Origin: Methylomonas montana
GTDB taxonomy: Bacteria; Pseudomonadota; Gammaproteobacteria; Methylococcales; Methylomonadaceae
NCBI RefSeq assembly: GCF_030490285.1
Contig: NZ_CP129884.1
Location: forward strand, 1,922,001 to 1,986,000
DNA: 64,000 nucleotides
Direction: 5' to 3'
A program made the translations under genes and the position numbers. Of this stretch, positions 461-40,954 are shown in pieces (the stretch's first letter is position 1; each line of letters starts with the position of its first letter). The notes below the pieces were generated by a model. It saw nothing but the letters and a program-made list of their open reading frames with translations, was not told the origin of the DNA and did not search any database.

Positions 461-503
461 ATTAAATAACAACGCTGGTTAAAAGTCGGTGCGGTACCGC
501 ACA
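461..503 (-). promoter_or_regulatory. Stress-regulon class II promoter, copy A
   Basis: Palindrome at 488-503 (inner 14 bases GTGCGGTACCGCAC perfect), GAC suffix at 485-487 in gene direction, 18-nt spacer, then -10 TTTAAT at 461-466. It points at the DUF2383 gene starting at 390. Confidence 0.8.
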
Positions 504-519
504 GCTGTTATCCAAACGG

Positions 520-1347
520 CTAGTGAATAGACTTATTCAAAATGGGATTGGCCGGCGGGTGTTTAGCGAATTTGTCCGAAATATCTAGTGCCAATTGTAT
601 GGGGGCATCGGCAACTTCGGCGAAAGCAGGTATTAGCCGATCAAATTCAGTGCTTATCACTTTGTAGCATTCGCAGACTTGTGCTTCCAAACCCGATCGA
701 TCCAACACACTAAGATGGCCTCTGCTGTAACTAATTATGCCTTTTTGTTGTAACTTCCCGGCGGCGTCGGTGATGCTTTCTCGGCGCACACCCAGCATAT
801 TGGCGATGTAATCATGAGTCACTAGCATCTGGTTTGACGCGTGCCGATCAAGGTTCAGCAGTAACCAACGGCATAGCTGCTGGTATATGGAATGGTGACG
901 GTTACAGGCTGCCGTCTGGGCTATTTGGGTAATCAGCGCCTGGATATAACGCAGCAACAACTGGAACAAGGACATATCGTTATCGCACCCATGCCGAGAT
1001 TCGATTTCTTTGATAAACAGATGCCGCTGCAGTCGATAAGCGTAGCCGGCACTACTGACCACGGCTTGATGCGGCATGGTTCGCCCGCCCATGAAAAGAC
1101 CCAGGCCGATGAAGCCTTCGTGACCGACCACGGCCAGTTCGCTCGATGTGCCGTTTTCAACGATGTAAACCTTGGACACGATGCAAGTCGTCGGGAAATA
1201 GGCGTAGCGCAATTCGCTTCCCGATTCGTAAAGAACTTTACCACTAGGCATCTGAACCAGTTCCAGATCGGATAAAAGGCGTTCGTATGTCTCTGCTGGA
1301 AGTGCTCCCAGCAAATGGTTTTGTCTAGGCGTATTCAGTTTAGTCAT
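520..1347 (-). CDS. Crp/Fnr-family transcriptional regulator (paralogue 1)
   Basis: A 275-residue regulator with an N-terminal cNMP-binding-like beta-roll (about residues 15-130), a dimerisation helix, and a C-terminal winged helix. The recognition helix reads LGVRRESITDAAGKLQ. Its Arg-Glu pair sits where E. coli CRP has R180-E181, while the CRP R185 position appears to be Asp. The phosphate-binding cassette does not match the usual CRP form, so cAMP binding should not be assumed. A conserved CECY pair follows the wing. GGAGAGGG precedes the ATG at 1347. Unlike the paralogue at 20693, it has no stress palindrome in its own promoter region, so it could act upstream of the other regulators. The last 35 or so residues extend beyond the paralogue. 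Confidence 0.9.
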   Translation of the reverse strand: MTKLNTPRQNHLLGALPAETYERLLSDLELVQMPSGKVLYESGSELRYAYFPTTCIVSKVYIVENGTSSELAVVGHEGFIGLGLFMGGRTMPHQAVVSSAGYAYRLQRHLFIKEIESRHGCDNDMSLFQLLLRYIQALITQIAQTAACNRHHSIYQQLCRWLLLNLDRHASNQMLVTHDYIANMLGVRRESITDAAGKLQQKGIISYSRGHLSVLDRSGLEAQVCECYKVISTEFDRLIPAFAEVADAPIQLALDISDKFAKHPPANPILNKSIH

Positions 1348-1534
1348 GAGCCCTCTCCATCTGTGTGGGGGCTGAACCTTTCTGCCGAGGTTAAAAATCT
1401 CTTTGTTAAGGGGGCCCCGAGAATTGTTTATTATTCTTAGATCATTTCGTAAATGGCATCTCCATTAAGATAAAAATAGCGAGTTTTCGCCGGTATATGA
1501 CTTGCAGGTAGCAGGTAGGTGCGGTCTATATGGG

Positions 1535-1681
1535 TTAGTGGGATTGGTGTTTATGGCGTTTCTTGGCATTATCAAAGCCGATTTCCAGCTCCATCTCGTC
1601 GTCCGATCGGTCGCTGAGCGCATTTTTGACCGTCTCTTCTTCGGTTTGATGAATTCGGTATTGCTGACGATCTTTGTTAAT
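1535..1681 (-). CDS. Small charged protein, probable ATT start codon
   Basis: An unbroken reading frame of 48 codons with a strong AAGGAGG at 1686-1692. Four nucleotides downstream comes ATT (1681-1679), followed by AAC AAA GAT. No ATG or GTG exists in frame before the upstream stop at 1753; the only near-cognate alternative is CTG at 1711. The product (I/M)NKDRQQYRIHQTEEET and onward is hydrophilic, acidic in the middle and His/Lys-rich at the end. I do not recognise the family. The gene has its own class II stress promoter (1748-1790) with a predicted leader of about 60 nt. The combination of promoter, ribosome site and open frame argues for a real gene initiated at ATT, a rare start known from infC. 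Confidence 0.65.
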   Translation of the reverse strand: MNKDRQQYRIHQTEEETVKNALSDRSDDEMELEIGFDNAKKRHKHQSH

Positions 1682-1747
1682 AACGCCTCCTTGATAAATT
1701 GTGATGGTCAGTAAAGTGCTGAGCGACTGTTTCGCTACGCGGTAAAA

Positions 1748-1790
1748 ACATTACAAACAAAAAGAAAATTGATCCGTACGGTAGCGCACA
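1748..1790 (-). promoter_or_regulatory. Stress-regulon class II promoter, copy B
   Basis: Palindrome at 1775-1790, suffix GAT instead of GAC, 18-nt spacer, -10 TAATGT at 1748-1753. It drives the 48-residue protein at 1535-1681. Confidence 0.75.
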
Positions 1791-1829
1791 TAGGCTTAAG
1801 GTTAGTGTGGAATGGTGGCGACCAATTTT

Positions 1830-1972
1830 TTGACGACAGGGCACCTCGAAAAACTTGGCGCTTCGACAGGCTCTGCGCTAACAGATATGCAGTATAATCA
1901 ATCAGTTACGTTTATGGTGAGCTTGTCGAACCATGAACACAACAGCTTTTCGAGTTGCCCGACCGTTGTCAG
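1830..1972. repeat. Nested imperfect palindrome (REP/MITE-like)
   Basis: Outer arms GGGCACCTCGAAAA (from 1839) and TTTTCGAGTTGCCC (to 1960) enclose inner arms CTTCGACAGGCTC (1861-1873) and GGTGAGCTTGTCGAACC (1916-1932). A further weaker pairing extends to TGACGACA/TGTCA outside. The arms are 80-90 percent complementary. No open frame crosses it. It resembles dispersed intergenic palindromes with a TTCGACAxGCTC core. Whether it is mobile cannot be told from one copy. Confidence 0.6.
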
Positions 1973-2259
1973 CCATTCAGCAAACTGCTTATGCATAGAC
2001 ATAACTATAGGATAAAAATAGAATTTTATAATAAAAATTATGTGTGTCACCGAACCGACATCATTAGTGGTGCAGGTTAGAATGCTACTAGCTTGATACA
2101 TTAACTATATACAAACTAATTTGTATGTATCGGCAAATTTCAAAGGTTTTGGTTGGCAGCAAATACGCTTATTAAAATCATGAAATTAAAACGATATTTT
2201 TTCAATATATTTTCAAAATGAAAATATACCTATCTAATCATTGGTCAAAATAAACTAAT

Positions 2260-4693: not shown

Positions 4694-5203
4694 TCAAACG
4701 ATGACCGATGCTTCCTCGGATGAGGAAATATCCTTTGCTTGGGCCTGCTGGAAAATATTGTTTGCGGTATCGCGCGCCTCGACGCTTGCTGTATTGACAG
4801 CAATCAAAGTGCGTCCACCCTTGATTTTCTCTTGATAGTGTTTGGCTTCATGCTCAGGAATGCCTACTCCAATCAATGCATTCATTAACTCTCCAAGGCT
4901 CCCGGTTTGGAGTGTTCGGCTCAATTCAACCATAATGGGGCCGGCGGCAATGAACCGGCCGACGCCAGGAATTTCCAGGCTACCAATTCCGGTGATCCAC
5001 TCAAGATCGACTCCGCCTGCCACAACAACATTGGCATTTTCGCCGGCGTTGTCCTGTGAGTTAACGACAGGGTTGTTGGGGTTGGACATGTCTGGGAATA
5101 GCACGGATATTTCGTTGTTTGAAAACCCTGCCATCTTCAGGTTATTAACAATAATCGTTGTCTGATCGATATCCTGGCTTATACAAAAAATAGGCTTATA
5201 CAT
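4694..5203 (-). CDS. YflT/DUF3341-like stress protein (divergent paralogue)
   Basis: A 169-residue protein that starts KPIFCISQDIDQTTIIVNNLKMAGFSNNEISVLFPD. This alpha/beta pattern is shared with its paralogue at 13129-13650 (SVFCIAQTIEQTESIVKQLK). Both contain a glycine-rich segment ending IPG.G.FIAAGPIM and a conserved ALIGVGIPE.EA..Y..KIKGG block. In this copy the glycine-rich membrane-like stretch is shortened: the paralogue's GAALGAAAGG is replaced by LQTGSLGELMN. Function unknown. The gene is probably induced by the class II stress promoter at 5373-5415, with a leader of about 160 nt. Confidence 0.8.
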   Translation of the reverse strand: MYKPIFCISQDIDQTTIIVNNLKMAGFSNNEISVLFPDMSNPNNPVVNSQDNAGENANVVVAGGVDLEWITGIGSLEIPGVGRFIAAGPIMVELSRTLQTGSLGELMNALIGVGIPEHEAKHYQEKIKGGRTLIAVNTASVEARDTANNIFQQAQAKDISSSEEASVIV

Positions 5204-5703
5204 AATATTCTCTTCGATCGGGATAACAGTTTTTTAAGGGTGTTATCCAGGTGCATTTTTCGGTTTTTTAATAAAAAATATTAATTATAAAATTAACCAT
5301 TGCGAGATAATAAATATTTATCGTGAATTTGGTATTTAATAATGGTCTAATTAATATCTTATTGGATCTTTCAATCTACAGTAAAACTTTGATTCAGTCG
5401 GTGCGTTGTCGCACATTCACGGTAAACAAAATTCGATCGAAGGCTATGAAAAGCGGATTTTAAAATATTAAACAATAATAAAGGCTGTGATTTTTAGCTA
5501 ATTATTTTTCGATACCAATGGATTGGATAGGTGAGTTAAAAATTGACTGAAAGTGGTGGTTTATTATTCAACTAGAGGATGGTTAAATGACCTAAAATAA
5601 ATTTGGCCGGTTTTTTCATTTTTGGTGGCAATCATGCTCATAATAGGTTTTCCTGATGTTGTATGAGTTAGCTTGATAGCTTGATAGCTTGGTGGCGTCG
5701 GCG
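5204..5703. other. AT-rich intergenic region
   Basis: About 500 bases with no convincing gene. It contains the class II promoter at 5373-5415 and a threefold 8-base tandem repeat TAGCTTGA at 5669-5692, next to the stop of the sorbosone dehydrogenase-type gene. Confidence 0.6.
5373..5415 (-). promoter_or_regulatory. Stress-regulon class II promoter, copy C
   Basis: Palindrome at 5400-5415, GAC suffix, 18-nt spacer, -10 TAGATT at 5373-5378. It points at the YflT/DUF3341-like gene starting at 5203. Confidence 0.85.
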
Positions 5704-8065: not shown

Positions 8066-8248
8066 TTAATCTTCAGCAACCTTTTTGATGTCTTCTTTAA
8101 GGTCGCCAAACCCTGACTGAACTTTGCCGACGTTTTTTTGAACCGTGCCTTCTAGTTCCATGTCTTCGTCATCTAATATCTTGCCAGCAACTTCCTTGAT
8201 TTTGCCTTTGGTTTCTTGGACGCGGCCTTTTACTTGATCTTTGTTCAT
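8066..8248 (-). CDS. CsbD-like stress protein
   Basis: A 60-residue hydrophilic protein, MNKDQVKGRVQETKGKIKE and onward, with the CsbD signature of Lys/Glu-rich helices and GDLKEDIKK near the end. The open frame continues upstream to 8359 but would run through the stress promoter, so ATG 8248 is the start. E. coli YjbJ is the best-known abundant relative, and CsbD of Bacillus is under sigma-B. The molecular role is unknown. The class II promoter at 8316-8358 gives a leader of about 60 nt. Confidence 0.93.
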   Translation of the reverse strand: MNKDQVKGRVQETKGKIKEVAGKILDDEDMELEGTVQKNVGKVQSGFGDLKEDIKKVAED

Positions 8249-8315: not shown

Positions 8316-8358
8316 ACCATACTCGCAATGCTGAACAGGGTCGGTGCGTCAACGCACA
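8316..8358 (-). promoter_or_regulatory. Stress-regulon class II promoter, copy D
   Basis: Palindrome at 8343-8358, GAC suffix, 18-nt spacer, -10 TATGGT at 8316-8321. It drives the csbD-like gene at 8066-8248. Confidence 0.85.
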
Positions 8359-9254: not shown

Positions 9255-9840
9255 TTCAGTATTTTCCTCATTTATTCCTTAGGCCAGGCACGAATATTTC
9301 CTCAACAGTTTGGGCAGGATGCATGTAACTGTCGCCGGCGCGCGGATGGCGCCTTATGCCTTATCAGTGTGAGTGGTGTTGAATGCCTGGACTGTCAAAG
9401 ACGTATTGGCGTGGCGGTGCGACATAGTTACCCGGGACGCTGTTGTCGGTCGGTGCGCTTGCGTACAGACCGACAACAGATGCTGCTGTAGATTGGCTTT
9501 CGGGGTAGACCTATGGAATCAAGCGGGCAGTGTTTTCAGTTTTGTGTGCGGCAGTGTTGGCGGGCGCAACAGAAAGCAACGAACGCGAAACAAGGTGAAG
9601 ACCTAGAAAGCAGAAGGCCACATGCTAGGTCTGACCGTGTCTAAGAATCATTCGGTAATTACCTTGCCATGGCAGAGGGATGCCGACAAAAAAGGTCATG
9701 GAGCACTCTAATCACGGAACCAGTCAGGTTTTCAATTTTTTCTTAGGAGAAAGGAAAGCTGGTCTGGGAACCATTCAATAGAAATGGGCAATTGAGCTCA
9801 TTTTGAATTACTTAGTTTCTTTAGTTTTTGGAGTACAGCT
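9255..9840. other. Intergenic region with copy E promoter
   Basis: About 590 bases without a convincing gene. Its one clear element is the copy E promoter, nested in an 11-bp perfect inverted repeat (TGTTGTCGGTC at 9441-9451, GACCGACAACA at 9468-9478). Confidence 0.55.
9425..9467 (-). promoter_or_regulatory. Stress-regulon class II promoter, copy E
   Basis: Palindrome at 9452-9467, GAC suffix, 18-nt spacer, TAACTA at 9425-9430 as -10. It is framed by 11-bp inverted arms at 9441-9451 and 9468-9478, which could form a cruciform or a second dyad. It points at the deacetylase gene. Confidence 0.75.
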
Positions 9841-13089: not shown

Positions 13090-13128
13090 ATTAAGGTCTC
13101 GATCGGGACTGTTAAGTAACACTCAACG

Positions 13129-14207: not shown

Positions 14208-14250
14208 AATTTACTGGAACAGATGAATGGTGTCGGTGCGCTATCAAACA
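14208..14250 (-). promoter_or_regulatory. Stress-regulon class II promoter, copy F
   Basis: Palindrome at 14235-14250 with a weaker distal half (AAACA), GAC suffix, 18-nt spacer, -10 TAAATT at 14208-14213. It drives the BON / YflT-like / DUF2383 operon, leader about 130 nt. Confidence 0.8.
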
Positions 14251-15308: not shown

Positions 15309-15351
15309 ACTTTATCCAACACTGCGGGCGCTGTCGGTGCGCTGTCGAACA
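15309..15351 (-). promoter_or_regulatory. Stress-regulon class II promoter, copy G
   Basis: Palindrome at 15336-15351, GAC suffix, 18-nt spacer, -10 TAAAGT at 15309-15314. It drives the PRC-barrel gene with a leader of about 75 nt. Confidence 0.85.
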
Positions 15352-18246: not shown

Positions 18247-18289
18247 CGTTAACGCGACTCGCTGAATCGGGTCTGTGCGTTAGCGTACG
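18247..18289 (-). promoter_or_regulatory. Stress-regulon palindrome, copy H (weak -10)
   Basis: Palindrome at 18274-18289 and GAC suffix are good. The hexamer at the standard distance is TTAACG (18247-18252), poorer than the others. It points at mgtA and is paired with copy I, which faces the other way. Confidence 0.65.
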
Positions 18290-18341: not shown

Positions 18342-18384
18342 TGTTCGCTAGCGTACAGACGAGTAAGCCTTTTGGGGCTAGAGT
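18342..18384 (+). promoter_or_regulatory. Stress-regulon class II promoter, copy I
   Basis: Palindrome TGTTCGCTAGCGTACA at 18342-18357, GAC suffix, 18-nt spacer, -10 TAGAGT at 18379-18384. It drives the membrane protein at 18480. Confidence 0.88.
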
Positions 18385-19000: not shown

Positions 19001-19855
19001 TCAGGAATGGCTTAGCCCTCGGCGTTTATAAGCGTCGGCTAAGTTTTTCGGCTCGCCGCCTAAGATACGTTCGTAAGTTTCTCTCTCTGTTTGGTAACAT
19101 CCACAAGCAGCGGCTTCCAGGCCAATGCGATCCAGAATCGTAATGTCTCCGCGCCGATAGCTGATCAGTTTTTGTTCCTGCAGGGAAAGCGCAGCTTTAG
19201 TAATGCCGACTCGCCGCACGCCCAGAATATAAGCCAGAAAGATATGGGTGACATGAAAGGTGTCGGCGTGAGCACGGTCGTGCGTCATTAATAGCCAGCG
19301 TGCCAGGCGTGCTTCTACCAAATGAAAGCGGTTACACGCCGCCGTTTGCGCGAGCTGGCTCATCGAGACATACAAATAGCGCTTCAATTCCAGCTGTAAT
19401 GGTCTGCTGCGTTCCAGTTCCTGCAAAAACAAGGGTACTGCTATTCGTAACGCGGAACCCGCGCCTTGCACCAGCGCTTGAAACGGCGCGACTTCTACTC
19501 CCAGTGTTAGGGTGATACCCAGCATACCTTCATTGCCAATCAAGCCCACTTCCAAACCGCTATCGCCATCCATTGGCGTTACCAGGGAAATAAAACTGCC
19601 TGTCGGAAAATAAACATGCGGAATTCGTGCACCGGCAAGATAGAGCACTTCGGCAAAGGCGAGTTCGACTGGCTCGCAGCGTTCGAGCAAACGTGTTTGA
19701 TCCGAAGCGGGTAGGGCGTCAAGGAGACGGTTGGCCGCGGGAACTGCTGGTATGGACGACACGGGCGCTCTCCGGCGAGGTTTTTGTAATGCCAGGCAGG
19801 CTAAAAGGTTTGAAAAACTGCTCATTGCGATGCTGGCGGCGGTCCAGAGAGACAT
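19001..19855 (-). CDS. Crp/Fnr-family transcriptional regulator (paralogue 2, divergent)
   Basis: A 284-residue regulator with the same layout as the other two: beta-roll (VLYLAGARIPHVYFPTGSFISLV), dimer helix with SQLAQTAACNRFH, and winged helix. The recognition helix is LGVRRVGITKAALSLQ: the Glu found in the other two is Val here, so DNA specificity may differ. The C-terminal cysteine pair is CGCY. The start is uncertain. ATG 19855 leaves only about 15 nt after the predicted transcription start; ATG 19825 leaves about 45 nt. The copy J promoter overlaps its upstream region, suggesting control by this circuit. Confidence 0.88.
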   Translation of the reverse strand: MSLWTAASIAMSSFSNLLACLALQKPRRRAPVSSIPAVPAANRLLDALPASDQTRLLERCEPVELAFAEVLYLAGARIPHVYFPTGSFISLVTPMDGDSGLEVGLIGNEGMLGITLTLGVEVAPFQALVQGAGSALRIAVPLFLQELERSRPLQLELKRYLYVSMSQLAQTAACNRFHLVEARLARWLLMTHDRAHADTFHVTHIFLAYILGVRRVGITKAALSLQEQKLISYRRGDITILDRIGLEAAACGCYQTERETYERILGGEPKNLADAYKRRGLSHS

Positions 19856-19876: not shown

Positions 19877-19919
19877 AGATTAGCGAATCAGGCTGTTATT
19901 GTCTGTATGTTAGCGCACT
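19877..19919 (-). promoter_or_regulatory. Stress-regulon class II promoter, copy J
   Basis: Palindrome at 19904-19919, GAC suffix, 18-nt spacer, -10 TAATCT at 19877-19882. It lies directly before the Crp/Fnr gene at 19001 and predicts auto- or cross-regulation. Confidence 0.82.
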
Positions 19920-20008: not shown

Positions 20009-20051
20009 TGTGCTCTGGCGTACAGACTAGGGCGATGCATTTCCGTAAGCT
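20009..20051 (+). promoter_or_regulatory. Stress-regulon class II promoter, copy K
   Basis: Half-degenerate palindrome TGTGCTCTGGCGTACA at 20009-20024, GAC suffix, 18-nt spacer, -10 TAAGCT at 20046-20051. It drives the exported helical protein at 20221 with a leader of about 160 nt. Confidence 0.8.
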
Positions 20052-21482: not shown

Positions 21483-21525
21483 ACTGTACTGATAAATAAA
21501 ATTACGCTCTGTGCGTTATGGAACA
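21483..21525 (-). promoter_or_regulatory. Stress-regulon class II promoter, copy L
   Basis: Palindrome at 21510-21525 flanked by CTC/GAG (suffix GAG), 18-nt spacer, -10 TACAGT at 21483-21488. It drives the Crp/Fnr gene starting at 21415 with a leader of about 60 nt. Confidence 0.78.
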
Positions 21526-21574: not shown

Positions 21575-21617
21575 TGTTCGATAACGTACAGACCAGGATT
21601 GGGGCGGCTATTAAGCT
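21575..21617 (+). promoter_or_regulatory. Stress-regulon class II promoter, copy M
   Basis: Palindrome TGTTCGATAACGTACA at 21575-21590, GAC suffix, 18-nt spacer, -10 TAAGCT at 21612-21617. It points toward shc, with a terminator-like hairpin in between. Confidence 0.85.
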
Positions 21618-24373: not shown

Positions 24374-24416
24374 AAGATGCGCTGAATCCCTGTTCAGGTC
24401 TGTACGCTAGCGCACT
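24374..24416 (-). promoter_or_regulatory. Stress-regulon class II promoter, copy N
   Basis: Palindrome TGTACGCTAGCGCACT at 24401-24416, GAC suffix in gene direction, 18-nt spacer, -10 CATCTT at 24374-24379. It drives the RlpA-family gene at 24345. Confidence 0.75.
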
Positions 24417-29011: not shown

Positions 29012-29054
29012 TGTACGATAGCGTACAGACTACGTGGCCTCGTGTCGCTAAGCT
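29012..29054 (+). promoter_or_regulatory. Stress-regulon class II promoter, copy R
   Basis: Palindrome TGTACGATAGCGTACA at 29012-29027 (one mismatch from perfect), GAC suffix, 18-nt spacer, -10 TAAGCT at 29049-29054. The predicted start near 29061 leaves a 23-nt leader containing GAGGAG before ATG 29084. Confidence 0.9.
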
Positions 29055-29083: not shown

Positions 29084-29215
29084 ATGAACCTGGCAATCGA
29101 ACCCTTATTGGCGCTGGTGATCGGCATCTTGATTTTAATAGTGCCCCGATTTTTAAATTATTTCGTGGCGGTGTATTTGATTGTCGTCGGGGTATTGGGG
29201 TTGATACACCGTTAA
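29084..29215 (+). CDS. DUF3096 small membrane protein
   Basis: A 43-residue protein, MNLAIEPLLALVIGILILI and onward, almost wholly two membrane segments around PRFLNYFVAVYL. This matches the DUF3096 family. GAGGAGAATA lies before the ATG. Function unknown; such proteins are found with DUF3309 and other short membrane proteins in stress-gene regions. It is directly under copy R. Confidence 0.85.
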   Translation: MNLAIEPLLALVIGILILIVPRFLNYFVAVYLIVVGVLGLIHR

Positions 29216-32500: not shown

Positions 32501-35500
32501 AGTGGTGGCGCGGGCCTTGAGTCTGCCGCCCAAAATCGATAGCGCCGAAGCCTTATTACCGGCCGATAGTGTGCAATTGCGTTTGTACGGCCGGCGCATC
32601 TGGCGGTTTTTTACCACTTTCGTGACCGCCGAAGAACACTATCTGCCGCCGGATAATTTTCAGGAAGATCCGCTGCCGGTGATCGCCCATCGCAGTTCGC
32701 CGACCAATTTCGGGCTTTATTTACTGTCGGTGGTTTCTGCGCGGGACTTTGGTTGGTTGGGTTTGACCGATACTGTCGAGCGCTTGGAAGCCACACTGGC
32801 AACCCTTGCCGCCTTACCTAGATTGCACGGCCATTTTTATAACTGGTACGACACCCGCGATTTGCAGATGCTGGAGCCGCGCTATGTGTCCACCGTCGAT
32901 AGCGGTAATCTGGCCGGGCATCTGCTGACGCTGGCGCAAGCCTGTCGGGAAATGGCTAGCCGGCCGCTGGATTTAAACAACGCTCTGAGCGGACTCGCCG
33001 ACACGCATCGCTTATTACTGAATGCCTTGGCCAATAGCAAAGACGACCGGCGCACCCTGACGGTAACCTTAAAAGAATTGCGGCAAAAAACCGACTTCTT
33101 AGGTGAACTGTTGGCCAGTCGTCCCGTCGACGCTGTTGCCTGGAGCTCGCTGTGGCGGCAATTGACGGTTTGCGCCAACGCCTTGCACGATCTGGCCAAC
33201 GCGCATGCCGTCGAACGCGGCGATAGCCAGGACAACGAAGTGCTGGCTTGGGCCGGTCAGTTATGCGACGACATCCGTTCGCATGCCCGCGATGTGGCCA
33301 ATTTGATTCCCTGGATTCATTTTCCCGACCGGTACGCATCAGTGTGCGCACATTGTGCCGAGTTAAGTCATCAATTTGGACTGGAAACACCTTTATGCGA
33401 TTTGCCTGACAATTATGCGCTTTGGGCAACTCACGAAGAATGTTCGCAACCGGAACCGGCCAGGTCCGCTCAAAAAGCCCTGATTATTCTGTTACGTCGG
33501 GCTGGCGACCAAGTCGAAACCTTGCACAAACGCCTTGAATTGATAGCCGAGCAGTTTGAAGGTTTGTTCCGGGAGATGGACTTTCGGTTTTTATACGATG
33601 CCAATCGGCACATGTTCGCCATCGGTTATCGGGTCGCGGAAGGCGCCATTGATCCCAGTTATTACGACTTGCTGGCGTCCGAGGCCAGGCTGTCCAGTAT
33701 TATCGCCATTGCCAAACGCGATGTGCCGAGCACCCACTGGTTCCATCTGGGCCGGCGGGTGACTCGCGTGGCGCATGGCACGGTATTGCTGTCCTGGTCG
33801 GGATCGATGTTCGAATATCTGATGCCGTCGCTGGTGACGTTTACGCCGCGCTACAGTCTGCTCGATCAGACTTGCCGTCTGGTGGTAAAGCGGCAGATCG
33901 AATACGGCAAGGAACGCGGTGTGCCCTGGGGCGTGTCCGAGTCGGCGTTCAACGGTCGGGATTTGTATTTGACCTATCAATATTCCGCCTTCGGCGTGCC
34001 CGGTCTGGGCATGAAACGCGGCTTGGGCGAAGAACTGGTAATTGCGCCTTACGCCACAGCCTTGGCGGCGATGTATCTACCGCATGCCGCGGTGGAAAAC
34101 TTCGCACGCCTGGAACGGGAAGGGGCGCTGGGGCGTTATGGTTTCTACGAAGCTTTGGATTTCACACCGATCCGCTTGGCGGAAGGTCAGCGGGTGGCCA
34201 TGGTGCGTTGCTATATGGCGCATCATCAAGGCATGTCGCTGGTGGCGTTTGCCAACGTGATACACGATGGATCGATGCGGCATCGCTTCCACCGCGCCGC
34301 GCTGATTCAGTCTGCGGATTTGTTATTGCAGGAACGCATCCCGCACGGCGCCGACACCAGCGTGCTGCCTTTGTTGCAAGAACTGTCCGATGTGAAGGAA
34401 ACCGTGCAACCGCCGGTGCGCCGCGTACCGTCGCCGATGTCGGCGGTGCCTTCCACTCTGTTGTTGTCCAATGGCCGTTACGCGGTGATGATGACCGCCG
34501 CCGGTTCGGGCTATAGCCTGTGGCGGAATCTGGCGGTGACCCGTTGGCGGGAAGATGCCACCCGCGATGCCTGGGGCAGTTATTTATATCTGCGCGATGT
34601 CGATAGCGGCCAGGTCTGGTCGGCAGGTTACCAGCCGACTACGGCCATTCCGGAACACTACGAAGTGGTGTTTGTCGAGGATCGGGCCCGCATTACCCGC
34701 ACCGACGGGGCGATAGTCACTACTTTAGAAATCGTGGTATCGCCGGAAGACGACGCCGAAATCAGGCGGCTGAGCTTGACCAATAACAGCATGCACGAGC
34801 GGGAAATCGAAGTGACGTCTTATGCCGAAATCGTGCTGGCGACCATGCAGGCCGATATTGCCCACCCGGCTTTTTCCAATCTATTCGTACAGACCGAATA
34901 CTTGCCGCAGACCAGAACATTGCTCGCGCATCGCCGGCAACGCTCCGCAGACGACCCGCAACTGTGGGCCGCGCATGTGCTGGCCGACCGGCAGCAAGCC
35001 GGCGACGGTTTGCAATACGAAACCGAACGGGCCCGTTTCATCGGCCGAGGCCAAACCCTGCGCGCTCCCTTGGCGGTGATGGATGGCCGGCCCTTGAGTA
35101 ACACCGTCGGCTCGGTGCTCGATCCGATATTTAGTTTGCGTACCCGAATTAAAGTGGCGGCCGGCGCCACCGAACATTTGACCTTCACCACGCTGGTTGC
35201 TGCGTCAAGGCAGGCCGCAGCGGATTTGGCCGATAAGTATCACAATCTAATGGCCTGGGAACGCGTGTCGGCCTTGGCCTGGACCCATGCCCATGTGCAA
35301 CTGCATCATTTGCGCACCAAACCGGACGAGGCGCAGTTGTTTCAGATGCTGGCCAATCGCTTGATCTATGTCGATCCGTCGCTTAGGCCGGCCGGTAAAA
35401 CGCTGCAGATGAATACCCTAAATGTCACTAATTTGTGGCGCTACGGTATATCCGGCGATAGACCCATCTTGTTACTGCGGGTCAGCGAGCTGGAAGATCG

Positions 35501-38288
35501 GGGCATCGTCGAGCAATTGCTGCGCGCCCACGAGTATTGGCGGATTAAAGGCCTGGCCGTAGACCTGCTGATTCTGAATGAAAAGGAAGTCTCTTATGTC
35601 GAGGACTTGCAGAATTTGCTGGAAAACCTGGTGCGGGAAAATCAGGCCCGTTCGGCTTCGTCGGAGCATGAACCGCAGGGCGCTATTTTTGTGCTGCAAA
35701 CCGGTCTGTTGTCCATGGAAGAACGCCGCTTGCTGCAAACCTCGGCAAGAGCGATGCTGGTTGGCAATCGCGGCACCTTGGCCGAACAATTGTTGCGGCA
35801 TCCGCGGCCAGCCACGGCGTTTATCGCCAAGCATATCTTACCGCCGGAAACCGACGCGCCGGCCTTGGCGCTGCCGGAACTGGAGTTCTTCAACGGCCTG
35901 GGCGGCTTTGCCGAGGATGGCCGCGAATATGTCATCGTGCTGGATAAGGGTCAGTGCACGCCCGCACCGTGGATCAATGTGATCGCCAATCCCGAATTCG
36001 GTTTCACGGTCTCCGAGTTGGGCAGCGGCTGCACCTGGTGCGGCAATAGCCGCGAGAACCAATTGACGCCTTGGTCGAACGATCCGGTCAGCGATGCGCC
36101 GGGCGAAGTGTTTTATTTGCAAGACGATGAAAGTAACGCGTTGTGGACGCCGACCGTGCTGCCGATCCGGGTCGATAATGCCAGCTATTTGATTCGGCAC
36201 GGTCAGGGTTATAGCCGTTTCGAGCATGTCTCACATGGTATCCATAGCGAATTGTTGCAATTCGTTAGCAAAGACGATCCGGTCAAAATTTCCTCATTGA
36301 CCTTGACCAATGTCTCGGGCCGCCGCCGTCGCTTGACCGTGACGGCCTATCTGGAATGGGTGCTTGGTGCCTCGCGTAGCGTTACCGCGCCGCATATCGT
36401 CACGGAATTAGACCAAGATACCGGCGCAATGTTGGCTTACAACCCTTGGGATAAAGAGTTCGGCGCACGCATCGCCTTTGCCGATCTAGCGGGTCGGCAG
36501 ACCGCCTGGACCGCCAATCGCACCGAATTCATCGGCCGTAACGGCAGCCTGGATGCGCCGGCCGGCTTGTTGAACCGCAAACCACTGAAAAACCGGGTTG
36601 GTGCCGGCATGGACCCGTGTGCGGCTTTGCAAACCACCATAGACTTGGCGCCCGATGAACGGATCGAAATTGTATTTTTACTGGGGCAAGGTAAGGACAA
36701 ACAACACGCTGCCGAGTTAATCCACCGGCATCGAATGGTTGACGTAGCCACTACGTTTGCCGAGGTAACGCAGTCTTGGCAGGCGATATTGGGCAAGGTG
36801 CAAGTCAAAACCCCGGACCGCGAGCTGGATCTGCTGTTGAACAGTTGGTTGTTGTATCAAACCTTGAGTTGCCGGATGTGGGCGAGGGCGGCGTTCTATC
36901 AGGTGGGCGGCGCATTTGGCTTTCGAGATCAGTTGCAGGACAGCATGGCCTTGGCGGTGACCAGGCCCGATTTGACTCGCGCGCATATCCTGCGTGCCGC
37001 CGCCCGTCAGTTCGAGCCGGGCGACGTGCAACATTGGTGGCATCCGCCTACCGGTCGTGGCGTGCGCACCCGTTTTTCCGATGATCGGGTTTGGCTGCCG
37101 TTTGTGGTTGCCCATTATCTCAAGGTCAGCGGCGATAACGCTGTACTGGAGGAGTCATTGCCGTTTCTGGAAGGCCCGGAGTTGGCGGCGGAACAGGACG
37201 ATGCCTATTTTCATCCTACCGAAACCTTGCGCCTAGCCAGCCTGTTCGAGCATTGCGCGCGTACGCTGGATTTAAGCCTGGCCACCGGTGTGCACGGTTT
37301 GCCGTTGATCGGTAGCGGCGACTGGAACGACGGCATGAATCGGGTCGGCAATCGGGGGCAGGGCGAGAGCGTCTGGCTGGCCTGGTTCCTGATCGCGACG
37401 TTGTCGGAGTTTGCCGATGTCGCCGAAAGCCGTGGAGACAATGAGCGAGCCGAACGCTGGCGCCAGCATGCCGAACAACTGCGGGTCGCCGTCGAAGCGG
37501 AAGGCTGGGACGGCGCCTGGTATCGGCGCGCCTATTTCGACGACGGTTCGCCGCTGGGCTCGGCGACCAACGCCGAATGTCGGATCGACTCCATTGCGCA
37601 GAGTTGGGGGGTAATCTCAGGCGCTGCCGACCCGGAACGAGCACGACGGGCGATGGAGTCGGTACGCGAGTATTTGGTGCGCTACGGCGACGATCTGCTG
37701 TTGCTGTTCACGCCGCCGTTCGACAAGACCGAGCGCGATCCAGGCTATATCAAAAGTTATCCGCCCGGCATACGGGAGAACGGCGGCCAATACACCCATG
37801 CGGCGATCTGGTCGGTGATGGCTTACGCGATGCTGGGCGAAGGCGATCAGGTCGCCGAGCTGATGCGGATGCTGAATCCGATCAAGCGCACCGCCAGCCG
37901 CACCGGGATTTATGCCTATAAGGTCGAGCCTTATGTGTTGGCGGCGGACATCTATTCGGAAGCACCGCACGCTCGGCGCGGTGGCTGGACTTGGTATACC
38001 GGCGCGGCCGGTTGGTTTTACCGGGCCGGCGTGGAGTCCATGCTCGGTTTGCAAGTGCGTGGTGGCTACTTGCTGTTCGATCCTTGTATTCCGCGAGCCT
38101 GGCGCGGTTACGGCATGGTGTATCGGCATGGTGCCAGCGTTTATGAAATTACGTTTGAAAACCCGAATGGCGCGACGCGCGGAGTTACCAGTGTCGAACT
38201 GGACGGGGTAGTGCAGACAAATGGCAACGGCATAGGCTTGATTGACGACGGGCAAACTCACCAGGTGCTGGTGGTGTTGGGCGTTTAA
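29586..38288 (+). CDS. Cyclic beta-1,2-glucan synthase
   Basis: A 2900-residue giant membrane enzyme of the NdvB/Cgs family. It makes cyclic beta-1,2-glucan from UDP-glucose; the polymer goes to the periplasm and acts in osmotic adaptation. In order: a cytosolic N-terminal region; membrane segments at about residues 405-465; the GT84 glycosyltransferase core (ITLDADTKLPMG at about 623, RGHRWARGDWQL at about 773); further membrane segments at about 810-980; a glucoamylase-like domain (GVSESAFNGRDLYLTYQYSAFG at about 1440); and C-terminal glycoside hydrolase 94 phosphorylase modules with SGDWNDGMNRVG at about 2576. Length and domain order match rhizobial and Brucella enzymes. GGAG lies nine bases before ATG 29586. 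No ndvA-type exporter is in the window. Confidence 0.95.
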   Translation: MAKRREQRRHVRSEHPGGEEAPIRFELFNTERLEQHAVSLAQAQKITTLKKGRKLIPRVRENAQVLLEAYKSVAKAVKEQHAITPAAEWLLDNFHVIEEQVSDIHVDLPESYSRELPKLAEGVLAGYPRVYGIAWALVAHTDSRFAPDLLTLFVKAYQNVDPLTLGELWAIPITLRVLLVENLRRLAVSIMRSQNGRRLADQFVDRVEQIVARSDSPELTIPAGVLPAEPLRQAYAVQILQRSHDPHPAVALSLEFLNDWLGEQGLSLDDIVHREHAAQIADNMTVRNIITSMRAISAFDWPQFVEDVSLVDACLRAHDGYLAMDFLTRDRYRHAIEELAKRSPVSEVEIARRAIVEVQIAIDQDSGDERQMEPGYYLIGAGRYAFEAKVAYRPTFKQRLLRTYVSHAGLAYVGSVGLLTLLLLTLPLSISSVAGLNGFQLCLLALVLVFPASDIAVGLMNHFIVAGLPPNHLPRLELKEGVPEALSTFVVVPTMFVSEAGVRQQIAQMEIRYLANPDGAVRFALLSDWADAEQETQANDDDLLSVAVSAVNALNAKYDQQRFFVFHRKRLWNASEGKWMGWERKRGKLQEFNRLLRGATDTSFLPIAGQPAAAPAGVCYVITLDADTKLPMGVVAQLVGVAAHPLNKPVFDADSQTIVDGYGILQPRVTPTLPQRQERSMFHQIFAGASGTDAYSSSVSELYQDLFGLGTYSGKGLYHVDSFEAALAGRVPDNTQLSHDLFESVYVRCGLVSDIEFFEEFPSHTEVAASRGHRWARGDWQLIPWIFGALGKGMPMIGRWKMLDNLRRSLSAPAAFSALVASWAMPHAPLITLIGFVLTALAFPAILAVTAGFTAPRRGISFATHVRGVLENVAWALCNSLVALTLLAQQAWLMTDAIVTTLVRLFITRRKLLKWVTALQAKAGAGHALKNLIRPLSHSSSVVFGAGALVVLFNPNAIVAAAPFLVLWWLAPVVARALSLPPKIDSAEALLPADSVQLRLYGRRIWRFFTTFVTAEEHYLPPDNFQEDPLPVIAHRSSPTNFGLYLLSVVSARDFGWLGLTDTVERLEATLATLAALPRLHGHFYNWYDTRDLQMLEPRYVSTVDSGNLAGHLLTLAQACREMASRPLDLNNALSGLADTHRLLLNALANSKDDRRTLTVTLKELRQKTDFLGELLASRPVDAVAWSSLWRQLTVCANALHDLANAHAVERGDSQDNEVLAWAGQLCDDIRSHARDVANLIPWIHFPDRYASVCAHCAELSHQFGLETPLCDLPDNYALWATHEECSQPEPARSAQKALIILLRRAGDQVETLHKRLELIAEQFEGLFREMDFRFLYDANRHMFAIGYRVAEGAIDPSYYDLLASEARLSSIIAIAKRDVPSTHWFHLGRRVTRVAHGTVLLSWSGSMFEYLMPSLVTFTPRYSLLDQTCRLVVKRQIEYGKERGVPWGVSESAFNGRDLYLTYQYSAFGVPGLGMKRGLGEELVIAPYATALAAMYLPHAAVENFARLEREGALGRYGFYEALDFTPIRLAEGQRVAMVRCYMAHHQGMSLVAFANVIHDGSMRHRFHRAALIQSADLLLQERIPHGADTSVLPLLQELSDVKETVQPPVRRVPSPMSAVPSTLLLSNGRYAVMMTAAGSGYSLWRNLAVTRWREDATRDAWGSYLYLRDVDSGQVWSAGYQPTTAIPEHYEVVFVEDRARITRTDGAIVTTLEIVVSPEDDAEIRRLSLTNNSMHEREIEVTSYAEIVLATMQADIAHPAFSNLFVQTEYLPQTRTLLAHRRQRSADDPQLWAAHVLADRQQAGDGLQYETERARFIGRGQTLRAPLAVMDGRPLSNTVGSVLDPIFSLRTRIKVAAGATEHLTFTTLVAASRQAAADLADKYHNLMAWERVSALAWTHAHVQLHHLRTKPDEAQLFQMLANRLIYVDPSLRPAGKTLQMNTLNVTNLWRYGISGDRPILLLRVSELEDRGIVEQLLRAHEYWRIKGLAVDLLILNEKEVSYVEDLQNLLENLVRENQARSASSEHEPQGAIFVLQTGLLSMEERRLLQTSARAMLVGNRGTLAEQLLRHPRPATAFIAKHILPPETDAPALALPELEFFNGLGGFAEDGREYVIVLDKGQCTPAPWINVIANPEFGFTVSELGSGCTWCGNSRENQLTPWSNDPVSDAPGEVFYLQDDESNALWTPTVLPIRVDNASYLIRHGQGYSRFEHVSHGIHSELLQFVSKDDPVKISSLTLTNVSGRRRRLTVTAYLEWVLGASRSVTAPHIVTELDQDTGAMLAYNPWDKEFGARIAFADLAGRQTAWTANRTEFIGRNGSLDAPAGLLNRKPLKNRVGAGMDPCAALQTTIDLAPDERIEIVFLLGQGKDKQHAAELIHRHRMVDVATTFAEVTQSWQAILGKVQVKTPDRELDLLLNSWLLYQTLSCRMWARAAFYQVGGAFGFRDQLQDSMALAVTRPDLTRAHILRAAARQFEPGDVQHWWHPPTGRGVRTRFSDDRVWLPFVVAHYLKVSGDNAVLEESLPFLEGPELAAEQDDAYFHPTETLRLASLFEHCARTLDLSLATGVHGLPLIGSGDWNDGMNRVGNRGQGESVWLAWFLIATLSEFADVAESRGDNERAERWRQHAEQLRVAVEAEGWDGAWYRRAYFDDGSPLGSATNAECRIDSIAQSWGVISGAADPERARRAMESVREYLVRYGDDLLLLFTPPFDKTERDPGYIKSYPPGIRENGGQYTHAAIWSVMAYAMLGEGDQVAELMRMLNPIKRTASRTGIYAYKVEPYVLAADIYSEAPHARRGGWTWYTGAAGWFYRAGVESMLGLQVRGGYLLFDPCIPRAWRGYGMVYRHGASVYEITFENPNGATRGVTSVELDGVVQTNGNGIGLIDDGQTHQVLVVLGV

Positions 38289-38438
38289 GCACAAACTGCC
38301 GGCGTGTACTGTATCTGTTCGTTGCCGTACCGACTGTATTGGGATTTGCGAGTAGCATGGCGACTAAGCGTTGATACAGATTATTCCGCGCTTCGATCAT
38401 GGCCAATTCGGTTACGGTCGACATTTCAGGAGATCAGT

Positions 38439-38630
38439 ATGGATATACAAGCAATCAAAGGTCGTGTCGAATTCGACAAAGACAAACTGGTAGAGATTGC
38501 CGGCAATAGACGCAATGAAATGCTGACGGATGCGGAAGACGATGTGCAGATGCATGCCGGCCGGGATCGGGTCGGATTTGTGGCTGTCAGGCGCAATACC
38601 AAAAAAGGTGGTAAAGACGATCGCTATTGA
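38439..38630 (+). CDS. Small hydrophilic hypothetical protein
   Basis: A 63-residue protein starting MDIQAIKGRVEFDKDKLVEIAG with CAGGAGATCAGT before ATG 38439. It is charged and probably helical, with a basic tail (RRNTKKGGKDDRY). The start IKGRVEFDKDKL recalls CsbD proteins but the rest does not. I do not recognise the family. It sits between the glucan synthase and a CsbD gene and ends in a UUCG terminator that overlaps the next promoter. Confidence 0.65.
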   Translation: MDIQAIKGRVEFDKDKLVEIAGNRRNEMLTDAEDDVQMHAGRDRVGFVAVRRNTKKGGKDDRY

Positions 38631-38728: not shown

Positions 38729-38771
38729 TGTACGCTAGCGTACCGACTTCGGTCGGTTTTGCTTGTATTCT
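38729..38771 (+). promoter_or_regulatory. Stress-regulon class II promoter, copy S
   Basis: Palindrome TGTACGCTAGCGTACC at 38729-38744, GAC suffix, 18-nt spacer, -10 TATTCT at 38766-38771. It drives the CsbD gene at 38851, leader about 73 nt. Confidence 0.88.
38743..38760 (+). terminator. UUCG-tetraloop terminator inside promoter copy S
   Basis: CCGAC-TTCG-GTCGG followed by TTTT. The 5-bp stem with an extra-stable C(UUCG)G loop uses the last bases of the palindrome and the GAC suffix, so terminator and promoter share sequence. Confidence 0.65.
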
Positions 38772-38850
38772 TTTAAACAGGCGCTGGGAGACTGTTCCAC
38801 GCTAGACCATGGCCGATGGGTGATGGTTAACGCATTCGGGGGAGAGCATT

Positions 38851-39027
38851 ATGAACAAAGAACAAGTGAAGGGCCGTATCGAAGAAGTCAAAGGTAAAGT
38901 CAAAGAAGCCACCGGGGTATTACTCGACGACAAGGCGTTGGAGGTAGAAGGTAATCTTCAAAAGAATGTCGGCAAGGTTCAGGCCGGATTTGGCGATCTG
39001 AAGCAGGATCTAAAAGATAAGCTGTAA
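38851..39027 (+). CDS. CsbD-like stress protein
   Basis: A 58-residue CsbD protein, MNKEQVKGRIEEVKGKVKE and onward, ending GFGDLKQDLKDKL. It is the third CsbD of the window. GGGGGAGAGC lies before ATG 38851. Under copy S. A 49-residue membrane protein follows 74 bases later. Confidence 0.93.
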   Translation: MNKEQVKGRIEEVKGKVKEATGVLLDDKALEVEGNLQKNVGKVQAGFGDLKQDLKDKL

Positions 39028-39101
39028 ATCGAAATTAGGTTTGACGGGTTTATCCGGGGTTTGTGTTGCCGGCTATGGTCGGCGTTTAGCGGAGAAAGAT
39101 C

Positions 39102-39251
39102 ATGCTTGAAACTATCGCGATCCTGTTAGTCATTCTTTGGGTGTTGGGTCTGGTATCCTCATACACCCTTGGCGGCTTCATTCATCTTTTATTGGTTGTC
39201 GCTGTTATTGTGGTTGTGCTGCGTATTATTCAAGGCCGAAAAGTGCTGTGA
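39102..39251 (+). CDS. lmo0937-type small membrane protein
   Basis: A 49-residue protein, MLETIAILLVILWVLGLVS and onward, with two membrane segments around SSYTLGGFIHLLLVVAVI, matching the lmo0937/DUF5670 family of tiny membrane proteins. GGAG lies seven bases before ATG 39102. Probably co-transcribed with the CsbD gene before it. Function unknown. Confidence 0.82.
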   Translation: MLETIAILLVILWVLGLVSSYTLGGFIHLLLVVAVIVVVLRIIQGRKVL

Positions 39252-39281
39252 CAGGGAATTGTAGTGGGGGGCGACAGCCGA

Positions 39282-39647: not shown

Positions 39648-40087
39648 CGCGGTTCCTGATTCGAACGCTGCTTGGGCCGAGGCTCAAGGCTACGCAGCGT
39701 GGCTGGAAATTGCAGGTAACGGCTGCGACGACGGATTAAGCCGCACAGCATTAGCGCCAACAGTAAATTAAAAGCCACCGCAATCAGTATCGCGCTGCTG
39801 GCCGGCAGACCGTTCTCCAGCTGCCATTGCACAGCGGCGGCCAGCAGGCCCAGCCAGGCGGCGCTGAGTAATAATGCCAGCATGGCGCCCGCGACGACCA
39901 TCGTCACCAAACTTTGGCCCGCCCGGCGGATTTCCAAGCCGACGAGCCGGAAGCGCTCGTGACTCAAACCCTGCAGTTCATCCCATAGACTTTGGATATC
40001 TTCCAGCACACCGGCCTCGCTTTGAGGTTCGGTGGGTATGGAGGAAGGGCCAGAGTCATGTTTTTGCGCAATCACGTCCGGGTTCAC
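39644..40087 (-). CDS. YqjE-like holin-superfamily membrane protein
   Basis: A 147-residue protein with a polar N-terminus, an amphipathic stretch (SHERFRLVGLEIRRAGQSLV) and two membrane helices at about residues 60-85 and 92-118. This is the layout of the phage holin superfamily 3.6 / YqjE. It lies 12 bases after the YqjD-like gene and overlaps the next gene by four bases. E. coli YqjE partners with YqjD and ribosome-associated membrane proteins in stationary phase. Confidence 0.83.
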   Translation of the reverse strand: MNPDVIAQKHDSGPSSIPTEPQSEAGVLEDIQSLWDELQGLSHERFRLVGLEIRRAGQSLVTMVVAGAMLALLLSAAWLGLLAAAVQWQLENGLPASSAILIAVAFNLLLALMLCGLIRRRSRYLQFPATLRSLEPRPKQRSNQEPR

Positions 40088-40099
40088 GAGCTTGGCGGT

Positions 40100-40330
40100 T
40101 TAACGGCTGCTCAATAAGCGGCTGAGTAAAAAACCCGTGGCGACCGCTATGCCTAACGAGGTCACCGGGTTATCGCGGATATAGCCTTGGCAGTTTTTCA
40201 CGAGCCGTTGCTCGGCGGTCTTTAGTTGCTCGCTTTTTTGATCCAGCGTTTCCGAGGCGTGATGAGAGGCACTGGCGATTTTGTCTACCGCTTCGTGCGC
40301 ATAATTGGATGCTTTATCGATAGTTTCCAT
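40100..40330 (-). CDS. YqjD/ElaB-like DUF883 protein
   Basis: A 76-residue protein with a helical, charged N-terminal region (SNYAHEAVDKIASASHHASETLDQKSEQLKTAEQ, read here in pieces) and a C-terminal tail anchor after the family motif YIRDNPVTSLGIAVATGFLLSRLL. YqjD and ElaB of E. coli are C-tail-anchored, RpoS-dependent proteins that bind ribosomes in stationary phase. The operon order BON, YqjD, YqjE, small protein is consistent with that group. Confidence 0.9.
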   Translation of the reverse strand: METIDKASNYAHEAVDKIASASHHASETLDQKSEQLKTAEQRLVKNCQGYIRDNPVTSLGIAVATGFLLSRLLSSR

Positions 40331-40344
40331 AATGGTTTCCTTGT

Positions 40345-40659
40345 TTATTTAAGACGCATGTCGTTTTTAACGGACTCTACGCCTTTGACGGTGCGGGCAA
40401 TTGCCACGGCTTTATTGATATCAGCCTGAGTGCCGACGAAACCGCTCAATTGCACGACGCCTTTGAAGGTTTCGACATTGATTTGGCCGGATCGCAGGTT
40501 GGGTTCGTCGAATAACATCGCTTTTACTTTGGTAGTGATCACGCTGTCGTCGACGTATTCGCCGGTGCCTTCGTGTTTATTAGTCGATGCGCAACCCGTT
40601 GCGACCAGTAAGGTCAGGGCCATAACAGATGCGGAAAATAATTTAGTCAGATTTTTCAT
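40345..40659 (-). CDS. BON-domain lipoprotein
   Basis: A 104-residue lipoprotein: signal ending VATGC (Cys about residue 23), then one BON domain (DDSVITTKVKAMLFDEPNLRSGQINVETFKGVVQLSGFV). GGAGAG lies before ATG 40659; the open frame continues to 40707 without a ribosome site. It heads a four-gene operon to 39282 under copy T. BON lipoproteins are thought to sit at the outer-membrane inner leaflet. Confidence 0.92.
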   Translation of the reverse strand: MKNLTKLFSASVMALTLLVATGCASTNKHEGTGEYVDDSVITTKVKAMLFDEPNLRSGQINVETFKGVVQLSGFVGTQADINKAVAIARTVKGVESVKNDMRLK

Positions 40660-40783
40660 GGGTAACTCTCCGGAATTGGAAGATAAATACGCTGCTTTAC
40701 GGCCCATGTTTAGTCAGCATCATCATGCGACTAACAGATTGCGACACGCTTGAGCGGGATTGGGGTTCTGAAACCTTGAAAGC

Positions 40784-40826
40784 ACTCTAAGCGTAAATCC
40801 GGAATCAGTCGGTGCGCTAGCGTACA
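40784..40826 (-). promoter_or_regulatory. Stress-regulon class II promoter, copy T
   Basis: Palindrome GGTGCGCTAGCGTACA at 40811-40826, GAC suffix, 18-nt spacer, -10 TAGAGT at 40784-40789. It drives the BON/YqjD/YqjE operon. Confidence 0.88.
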
Positions 40827-40910
40827 TAAATTGCTAAGGTGGTGACGCCAGGATAAATAGGCGGGTGGTTGATTGGAATTTGCATAGAAATATCCAGATA
40901 CCTGTGCTTA

Positions 40911-40954
40911 TGTGCGTTATCGCACCGACAGCCCATCTCTGTTGCGAATAAGCT
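40911..40954 (+). promoter_or_regulatory. Stress-regulon class II promoter, copy U
   Basis: Palindrome TGTGCGTTATCGCACC at 40911-40926, GAC suffix, 19-nt spacer (one longer than usual), -10 TAAGCT at 40949-40954. It drives the OmpA-family porin gene at 41066. Confidence 0.82.

Follow-up and report, generated by a model that had tools for sequence, protein, structure and literature searches.

At class II promoters CRP and FNR occupy a position centred at about -41.5; CRP binds TGTGA-N6-TCACA, whereas FNR, which activates in the same class II manner, binds TTGAT-N4-ATCAA, and NtcA of cyanobacteria recognises GTA-N8-TAC. Here we analyse a stretch of 64,000 nucleotides (nt) from Methylomonas montana (the window, bases 1922001-1986000 of a 4,634,080-base single-contig genome) in which a 16-bp palindrome with the arm spacing of the CRP site recurs before many genes. 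This palindrome, referred to below as the box, is probably the conserved operator of a Crp/Fnr subfamily typified by P0002, one of the regulators encoded in the window, and we predict from its sequence context that it serves as a class II activator site overlapping the -35 element. The first-pass annotation of the window had already read the palindromes as the mark of a class II Crp/Fnr stress regulon; that reading is supported by the fixed spacing of the site, by its co-occurrence with the regulator subfamily, by palindromes upstream of the regulator genes and by target families that recur in other genomes.

The box and its spacing from a promoter-like hexamer

At up to two mismatches the palindrome, TGTNCGNTANCGNACA, is present 25 times in the window, with 2.36 copies expected (100 shuffles, none reaching 25). 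The count depends on the mismatch limit, and the first-pass annotation had put it at 21, all of them intergenic and none in the last 23 kb. By our gene list 22 of the 25 lie in intergenic DNA, and 24 fall in the first 41 kb, which is 22% non-coding by the same list. The intergenic preference stands, and the description needs amending for three copies in coding DNA (26273, 28325 and 58149), the last of which is the only copy beyond 41 kb.

A genome-wide scan had been suggested as a check, and here the palindrome and the extended site behave differently. The palindrome by itself gives 274 matches at up to two mismatches compared with 199 for a reversed control, and we rejected it as a genome-wide marker. 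The composite of palindrome, GAC, 18 nt and TANNNT is specific: its 6 perfect and 7 one-mismatch occurrences all lie within 51 kb (1911798-1962826), as do 8 of the 11 with two mismatches and 4 of the 9 with three, and at up to three mismatches the genome holds 33 matches compared with 9 for the reversed control pattern. The binomial chance of finding 13 of 13 composites in 51 kb is 4e-26, a figure that is a guide only, since the sites were used to set the bounds of that stretch. Window position 461, where the regulon had been supposed to begin, is not its start; the locus reaches about 10 kb upstream of the window, where composites at genome positions 1911798 and 1918581 precede a CheB/CheR-like open reading frame (ORF; identified by sequence inspection) and a BON protein.

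In the contiguous 124 kb around the locus, TANNNT begins at offset 18 in 17 of 27 palindromes flanked by GA, and no other offset from 0 to 35 is represented more than twice. Where 14 copies had been credited with this arrangement we find 16 oriented sites in the window, in addition to the two upstream of it. The argument that so constant a distance cannot be chance gains from a set assembled regardless of spacing, namely 80 named loci retrieved with the regulator protein as sole query (the best 80 of at least 579 confirmed). Among the 285 GA-flanked palindromes of these loci (up to two mismatches), 124 have TANNNT at offset 18, compared with 16 at offset 19 and 0-9 at each remaining offset of 0-37, and the hexamer stands at 18 in only 23 of 383 palindromes that lack GA. 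Grouping the loci by record name, with slightly narrower edges that leave 284 sites overall, gives 73 of 96 sites at offset 18 in 20 methanotroph-type loci and 50 of 188 in 60 others. Numbered from the hexamer, offset 18 puts the centre of the site at about -41.5 and fixes it relative to the -10 element, which is the class II geometry.

The logo of 123 such sites, for which palindrome, GA and TANNNT were selected and the remaining positions were not, reads (C/T)TA-TGTRCGNTANCGYACA-GAC-N18-TAnnCT. Within it the palindrome, itself the search pattern at up to two mismatches, appears as a symmetric TGT..CG.TA.CG.ACA, a two-fold symmetric site of the kind expected of the Crp/Fnr superfamily. Position 4 is G in 53%, T in 25% and A in 20% of sites and position 5, where C is part of the search pattern, is C in 92%, so that the logo is not that of a CRP-type TGTGA-N6-TCACA site. 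When palindromes with the hexamer at 18 are taken with no condition on the suffix (n=146), the three bases that follow are G in 88%, A in 95% and C in 66%, compared with 39%, 73% and 28% in 518 other palindrome orientations. The A fits the symmetry of the operator, its mirrored position being T in 82%, whereas the G and C are unmirrored and therefore look like promoter bases; GAC occupies the place of GAC in TTGACA, with a 17-bp spacer to the hexamer. The fifth hexamer base, at -8, is C in 77 of 146 offset-18 sites compared with 74 of 288 control hexamers at other offsets. Elsewhere the core promoter is undistinguished: no A is conserved at -9 or -8 (C 52% at -8), -30 is free, -35 and -34 are fixed by the operator, and C is found at -13 in 23% of logo sites.

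The regulators and their co-occurrence with the site

Three proteins of the window, P0001, P0002 and P0003 (Table 1), carry a Crp-type helix-turn-helix (HTH; PF13545) above cut-off. The cNMP beta-roll (PF00027) is above cut-off in P0002 and barely so in P0003 (27.6 against 27.5 bits), and the Pfam search gave no cNMP_binding match for P0001 at E <= 0.001. P0003 and P0002 are paralogues with 63% identity. No NCBIfam model reached its cut-off with any of the three; the nearest to P0002 is TIGR03697 (NtcA), at 31.0 bits for a cut-off of 244.95. An AlphaFold2 model of P0002 built from a 12-sequence alignment (mean predicted local distance difference test score, pLDDT, 82.7) has a Crp/Fnr-like fold, and FNR, CRP, GlxR and NtcA are among the nearest solved structures, at about 15-22% identity, with FNR of A. 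fischeri as the top Foldseek match. Helix 188-200 of the model is the predicted recognition helix, and its RREGVTEAA segment, typically LGVRREGVTEAAGKLQ, is strongly conserved in the 80 loci, with R188 in 81 of 81 sequences and E189 in 74. P0002 has cysteines at 35, 60, 147, 158, 224 and 226; the first two are not conserved, 147, 158 and 224 are present in 81 of 81 sequences and 226 in 80. Two of the conserved residues form a CECY motif after the HTH, and P0001 is without the second of the four. That a redox or metal signal is sensed through these four near-invariant cysteines is a guess. The regulator is found in many genera; its best named relatives, among the best 80 of at least 579 loci, are in Methylomonas species at 82-90% identity, with M. 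koyamae and M. methanica among the species that encode a close relative, and the subfamily includes, among the matches listed, members from methanotrophs, ammonia oxidisers (Nitrosomonas), Pseudomonas, Paraburkholderia, Aeromonas and others.

We searched identical genome samples for the composite (up to two mismatches) and for the regulators. In the family sample the composite has at least one match in 83 of 151 genomes and the P0002 family (E 1e-20) is present in 63 of 151; the regulator accompanies 60 of the 65 genomes with at least three sites and 3 of the 86 with fewer (Fisher 4e-32, relatedness ignored). The class sample of 369 genomes contains 27 with at least three sites, 44 with the regulator and 26 with both. 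Once the two members of the own family are set aside, the regulator is present in 24 of 25 site-rich genomes compared with 18 of 342 others (Fisher 3e-25, relatedness ignored), and those 24 are spread over 23 families. The P values ignore relatedness, but genomes of the own genus repeat the same pattern, 7 of 12 having 15-25 sites together with regulators and 5 of 12 having 0-3 sites with none or one regulator. A scan of related methanotrophs had been proposed; the composite is present in many relatives within the family, and the term methanotrophs was too narrow, as the composite is also found in scattered other families of the class. A scan of the phylum at up to one mismatch found the composite in 13 of 299 genomes, including five from outside the class (G556, G570, G574, G610 and G711, each at 1 mismatch), and the system may extend into further classes.

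In 29 family genomes that carry the regulator there is no close orthologue of P0001 (at least 53% identity), and 26 of the 29 still have five or more sites. Because the sites persist where close P0001 orthologues do not, the P0002 type is the likelier binder, and we predict from these sequence comparisons that a P0002-type protein is the most likely one to bind the box.

Regulator genes also have sites of their own. The first-pass annotation had included two Crp/Fnr genes in the regulon, and the P0001 and P0002 genes are indeed each preceded by a site in promoter geometry, with the hexamer at 18 nt; the P0003 site lies about 430 nt upstream. Across 75 of the 80 named loci (five, with too little upstream DNA, were omitted) a palindrome with at most one mismatch is present within 350 bp upstream of the regulator gene in 38, compared with 97 of 2743 random stretches from the same loci. 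Own-gene sites at two of the three regulators make it likely that the regulators feed back on their own genes, and, since the GA flank is often on the far side, this feedback may run in either direction.

The dense island seen here is not a general feature. Among the matches listed, sites are tightly clustered in G084 (12 of 12 in 132 kb), G136 (7 of 7 in 80 kb) and G232 (9 of 9 in 90 kb), form two groups in G286, include scattered copies in G027, G053, G074, G090, G094 and G110, and are scattered throughout in G257 (6 sites, all at two mismatches), and single-island clustering was rejected as a rule on the strength of these scattered cases. A composite of the present genome that lies far from the island (G000:C1:20416-20458) resembles G010:C1:4475626-4475668 and G009 C169:191-233 over its full length and is possibly a conserved distant target.

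Predicted target genes in the window and in other genomes

The window genes with preceding sites encode CsbD (two), BON (two), PRC, P-type ATPase, Shc, RlpA-like, DUF3096, OmpA-family, EF-hand and TRL-like proteins, two of the regulators, and several products without a Pfam match (Table 1). In seven other genomes we examined 20 regions, each of 20 kb and chosen for holding sites, which together contain 82 sites; the reference set consisted of 33 proteins of the window, two encoded just upstream of it and seven families taken from the named loci. A reference-set gene follows 43 of the 82 sites (42 distinct genes), compared with 18 of 82 when the same palindromes are read in the opposite direction; at E 1e-10 the counts are 40 and 18. 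Random positions in the same regions, not restricted to intergenic DNA, precede such a gene in 377 of 4000 cases, and the opposite-direction control was added because these positions included coding DNA. CsbD accounts for 12 of the 43 sites (9 at E 1e-10), BON for 10, DUF3096 for 3 and PRC for two, with Shc, RlpA and OmpA once each; 39 of the 82 sites have no reference-set gene. The seven genomes include two, G232 and G426, from outside the family.

The target set (CsbD, BON, PRC, OmpA, RlpA, hopanoid synthesis and small membrane proteins) suggests, as judged from the gene families, a programme for the envelope and for stationary phase or stress. In Salmonella a CsbD protein, YjbJ, and a DUF1328 protein, YtjA, are tabulated among the small proteins under sigma-S control (PMC5437024), and it is the target families together with these sigma-S homologues that lead us to the label 'stress programme'. 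The earlier proposal of a regulon of stress-type genes is thereby sustained as regards the recurrence of its target families before sites elsewhere, the word stress itself resting on what those families are. The genome has an RpoS gene (G000:C1:3001314-3002159); presence of RpoS was uninformative as a discriminating test, with a match in 151 of 151 family genomes, 119 of them above cut-off.

Table 1. Boxes and Crp/Fnr regulators of the window (window coordinates; hexamers begin 18 nt after the three-base suffix unless stated).
Feature	Position	Strand	Context
Box	488..503	-	TTTAAT replaces TANNNT at 18; before DUF2383-like ORF (below cut-off) running off window start
Crp/Fnr regulator P0003	520..1347	-	HTH_Crp_2 50.8 bits; cNMP_binding 27.6 bits, cut-off 27.5
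Box + GAT + TAATGT at 18	1775..1790	-	About 430 nt before P0003 gene
Box (3 mismatches) + GAC + TAGAAT	2041..2056	+	Before EF-hand protein 2260-2613
Box + GAC + TAGATT	5400..5415	-	Before ORF 4694-5203 (no Pfam match)
Box + GAC + TATGGT	8343..8358	-	Before CsbD gene 8066-8248
Bidirectional box, GAC on both flanks	9452..9467	.	Plus side TAGATT to TRL-like gene 9841; minus side TAACTA (not TANNNT) to polysaccharide deacetylase 8448-9125; possibly serves two divergent promoters
Box + GAC + TAAATT	14235..14250	-	Before BON protein 13666-14073, then 13129-13650 and DUF2383-like 12622-13122 (below cut-off)
Box + GAC + TAAAGT	15336..15351	-	Before PRC-barrel protein 14667-15227
Box + GAC, weak hexamer TTAACG	18274..18289	-	Before P-type ATPase 15506-18100
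Perfect box + GAC + TAGAGT	18342..18357	+	Before ORF 18480-18848 (no Pfam match)
Crp/Fnr-type regulator P0001, divergent paralogue	19001..19762	-	Longer ORF to 19855; HTH_Crp_2 45.7 bits
Box + GAC + TAATCT	19904..19919	-	Before P0001 regulator gene
Box + GAC + TAAGCT	20009..20024	+	Before ORF 20221-20571 (weak SMBP match, below cut-off)
Crp/Fnr regulator P0002	20693..21415	-	Start codon uncertain, ORF to 21430; HTH_Crp_2 57.0 bits, cNMP_binding 33.9 bits, both above cut-off
Box + GAG + TACAGT	21510..21525	-	Before P0002 regulator gene
Perfect box + GAC + TAAGCT	21575..21590	+	Before squalene-hopene cyclase (Shc) 21817-23781
Box + GAC, weak hexamer CATCTT	24401..24416	-	Before RlpA-like protein (DPBB_1) 23857-24345
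Perfect box + GAC + TAAGCT	29012..29027	+	Before DUF3096 protein 29084-29215, ahead of giant ORF 29586-38288
Box + GAC + TAGCAT	38316..38331	+	Before ORF 38439-38630 (no Pfam match)
Box + GAC + TATTCT	38729..38744	+	Before CsbD gene 38851-39027
Box + GAC + TAGAGT	40811..40826	-	Before BON protein 40345-40659 (or 40707)
Box + GAC + TAAGCT at 19, not 18	40911..40926	+	Before OmpA-family protein 41033-42118

The giant ORF within the island, behind the DUF3096 gene, encodes 2,900 amino acids with glycoamylase and GH94 domains, a combination that we take to be that of cyclic beta-1,2-glucan synthases.

Proposed activation, its alternatives and the known systems

In the mechanism that we propose, a P0002-type dimer would sit on the palindrome, centred at about -41.5, and touch the TGT and CG half-sites through its RREGVTEAA helix, while RNA polymerase would hold GAC at -33 to -31 and TAnnnT at -12 to -7. 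The weak -35 element, GAC, would overlap the edge of the operator, and the bound dimer would recruit RNA polymerase to this weak GAC/TAnnnT promoter.

Several observations weigh against this proposal. An operator at -41.5 would hinder polymerase too, and in the named loci TANNNT is missing at 18 from more than half of the palindromes with a GA flank. Before regulator genes many palindromes carry GA on the side facing away from the gene, and the full composite faces the regulator gene in 13 of 75 loci at up to three mismatches (96 of 3436 controls) and in 0 of 75 at zero or one mismatch (31 of 3436 controls); autoregulation through the composite, with box, GAC and hexamer all facing the regulator, was set aside as weak on the count of 13 in 75, the palindrome-only test being the stronger. 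The class-level co-occurrence statistics take no account of relatedness, and of the 44 class genomes in which the regulator occurs, 18 fall short of three sites. Conversely, no regulator was detected even by profile search in G034 (9 sites), G085, G106 or G141 of the family, or in G472 of the class, each with at least three sites, and G129, with 20 sites, has only a regulator fragment. The G129 locus amounts to 1,663 bases, a 162-base match with one 1,500-base flank, so that the fragment apparently lies at a contig end.

The main alternative is that the same geometry serves a repressor, the same regulator covering the -35 of sigma-70-type promoters until a signal releases the genes. The spacer between GAC and TANNNT, 17 bp, is that of an ordinary promoter, in which the box would block the -35 region, and the many palindromes before regulator genes that lack GAC in the gene direction are what negative feedback might look like. 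Repressors, however, usually bind at varying positions, and a single register across unrelated promoters and lineages is what is expected of an activator that makes contacts with polymerase; the promoters, moreover, are weak wherever they were unselected, with no conserved A at -9 or -8, a free -30, and a -35 and -34 that are set by the operator. Because of this poor core promoter and the single register we hold repression to be less likely than activation, and regard it as unlikely. We think it improbable that the box is bound by some other protein, be it a P0001-type paralogue, an extracytoplasmic function (ECF) sigma factor or an unrelated factor, with the P0002 type merely travelling along. 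The P0001 gene does lie near the P0002 gene here and has its own site, and the five genomes with at least three sites and no detectable regulator, like the one with a fragment, would fit such a binder. Yet 26 of the 29 regulator-bearing family genomes without a close P0001 orthologue keep five or more sites, a Crp/Fnr dimer would fit the two-fold symmetry and the 16-bp TGT...ACA spacing, and it is the P0002 family with which the site co-occurs across the class, RpoS being, apart from P0001, the only other factor examined and, at 119 of 151 genomes above cut-off, not a discriminating one.

The crowding of copies into 51 kb of one genome could also suggest a mobile or structural palindrome, like a repetitive extragenic palindromic (REP) element, that has spread locally through the island. 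The flanks and spacers differ among copies, however, while the distance to the hexamer is fixed, and the same arrangement is found in other families with copies pointing at the same gene families. We rejected a REP-like repeat on the fixed spacing and the recurring target families, and give it next to no weight.

A class II operator of P0002-type regulators allows a broader picture, which we offer tentatively and consider rather doubtful as a whole: a general envelope-stress system of gammaproteobacteria run by a dedicated Crp/Fnr activator and not by an alternative sigma factor. A four-cysteine redox or metal sensor (near the hinge and C-terminus) might, possibly together with RpoS polymerase, switch on the genes for CsbD, BON, PRC, OmpA and hopanoids, which lie close together in some genomes, by way of an operator with bases in common with the -35 element. 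Whatever the fate of that picture, our reading gives a Crp/Fnr subfamily, whose three members here reached the cut-off of no NCBIfam model, its operator, its promoter geometry and a likely regulon; families of unclear function (CsbD, DUF3096, DUF2383 and BON) are grouped in one putative programme, which in this genome includes Shc, and the composite is specific enough for target prediction from sequence in this genome. The first-pass annotation knew of no published description of the site, and literature searches, covering open-licence papers, found none of either site or regulon; a match to a fragment of the consensus in PMC9201469 is, in the matching lines of that paper, made up of primer letters. 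In the open-licence literature we found no account of the operator class, of this subfamily of regulators or of its regulon; the Crp/Fnr and class II parts are of an already known kind.

Among the described systems, the EcfG/PhyR general stress response of alphaproteobacteria has similar kinds of targets, but it is a sigma-factor switch with its own -35, whereas the box is a palindromic operator. The sigma-S consensus has a C at -8, which the favoured C of our hexamer resembles, but C at -13 is present in only 23% of sites here and a dedicated operator defines them. The RpoS regulon of enterics has the CsbD (YjbJ) and DUF1328 (YtjA) families in common with the present targets, as the Salmonella table shows (PMC5437024). 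Within the superfamily, NtcA provides the nearest NCBIfam model and a near PDB match of P0002, and TGTA-N8-TACA is one form of the box; P0002, however, scores 31 bits for a cut-off of about 245, and the box has mostly G or T at position 4 and CG at 5-6. FNR, DNR and HcpR share the superfamily, and FNR gives the top structural match, but the N-terminal Fe-S cysteine cluster of FNR is not present in P0002, whose cysteines 35 and 60 are unconserved, the four conserved cysteines are presumably not placed like those of FNR, and the FNR site is unlike the box. With CRP at class II promoters the system has in common the Crp/Fnr fold, the 16-bp TGT...ACA site and a centre at about -41.5 from the predicted start; it differs in a half-site that is TGTNCG and not TGTGA, in a recognition helix, RREGVTEAA, that we take to be distinct from that of CRP, and in the GAC kept here at -33 to -31.

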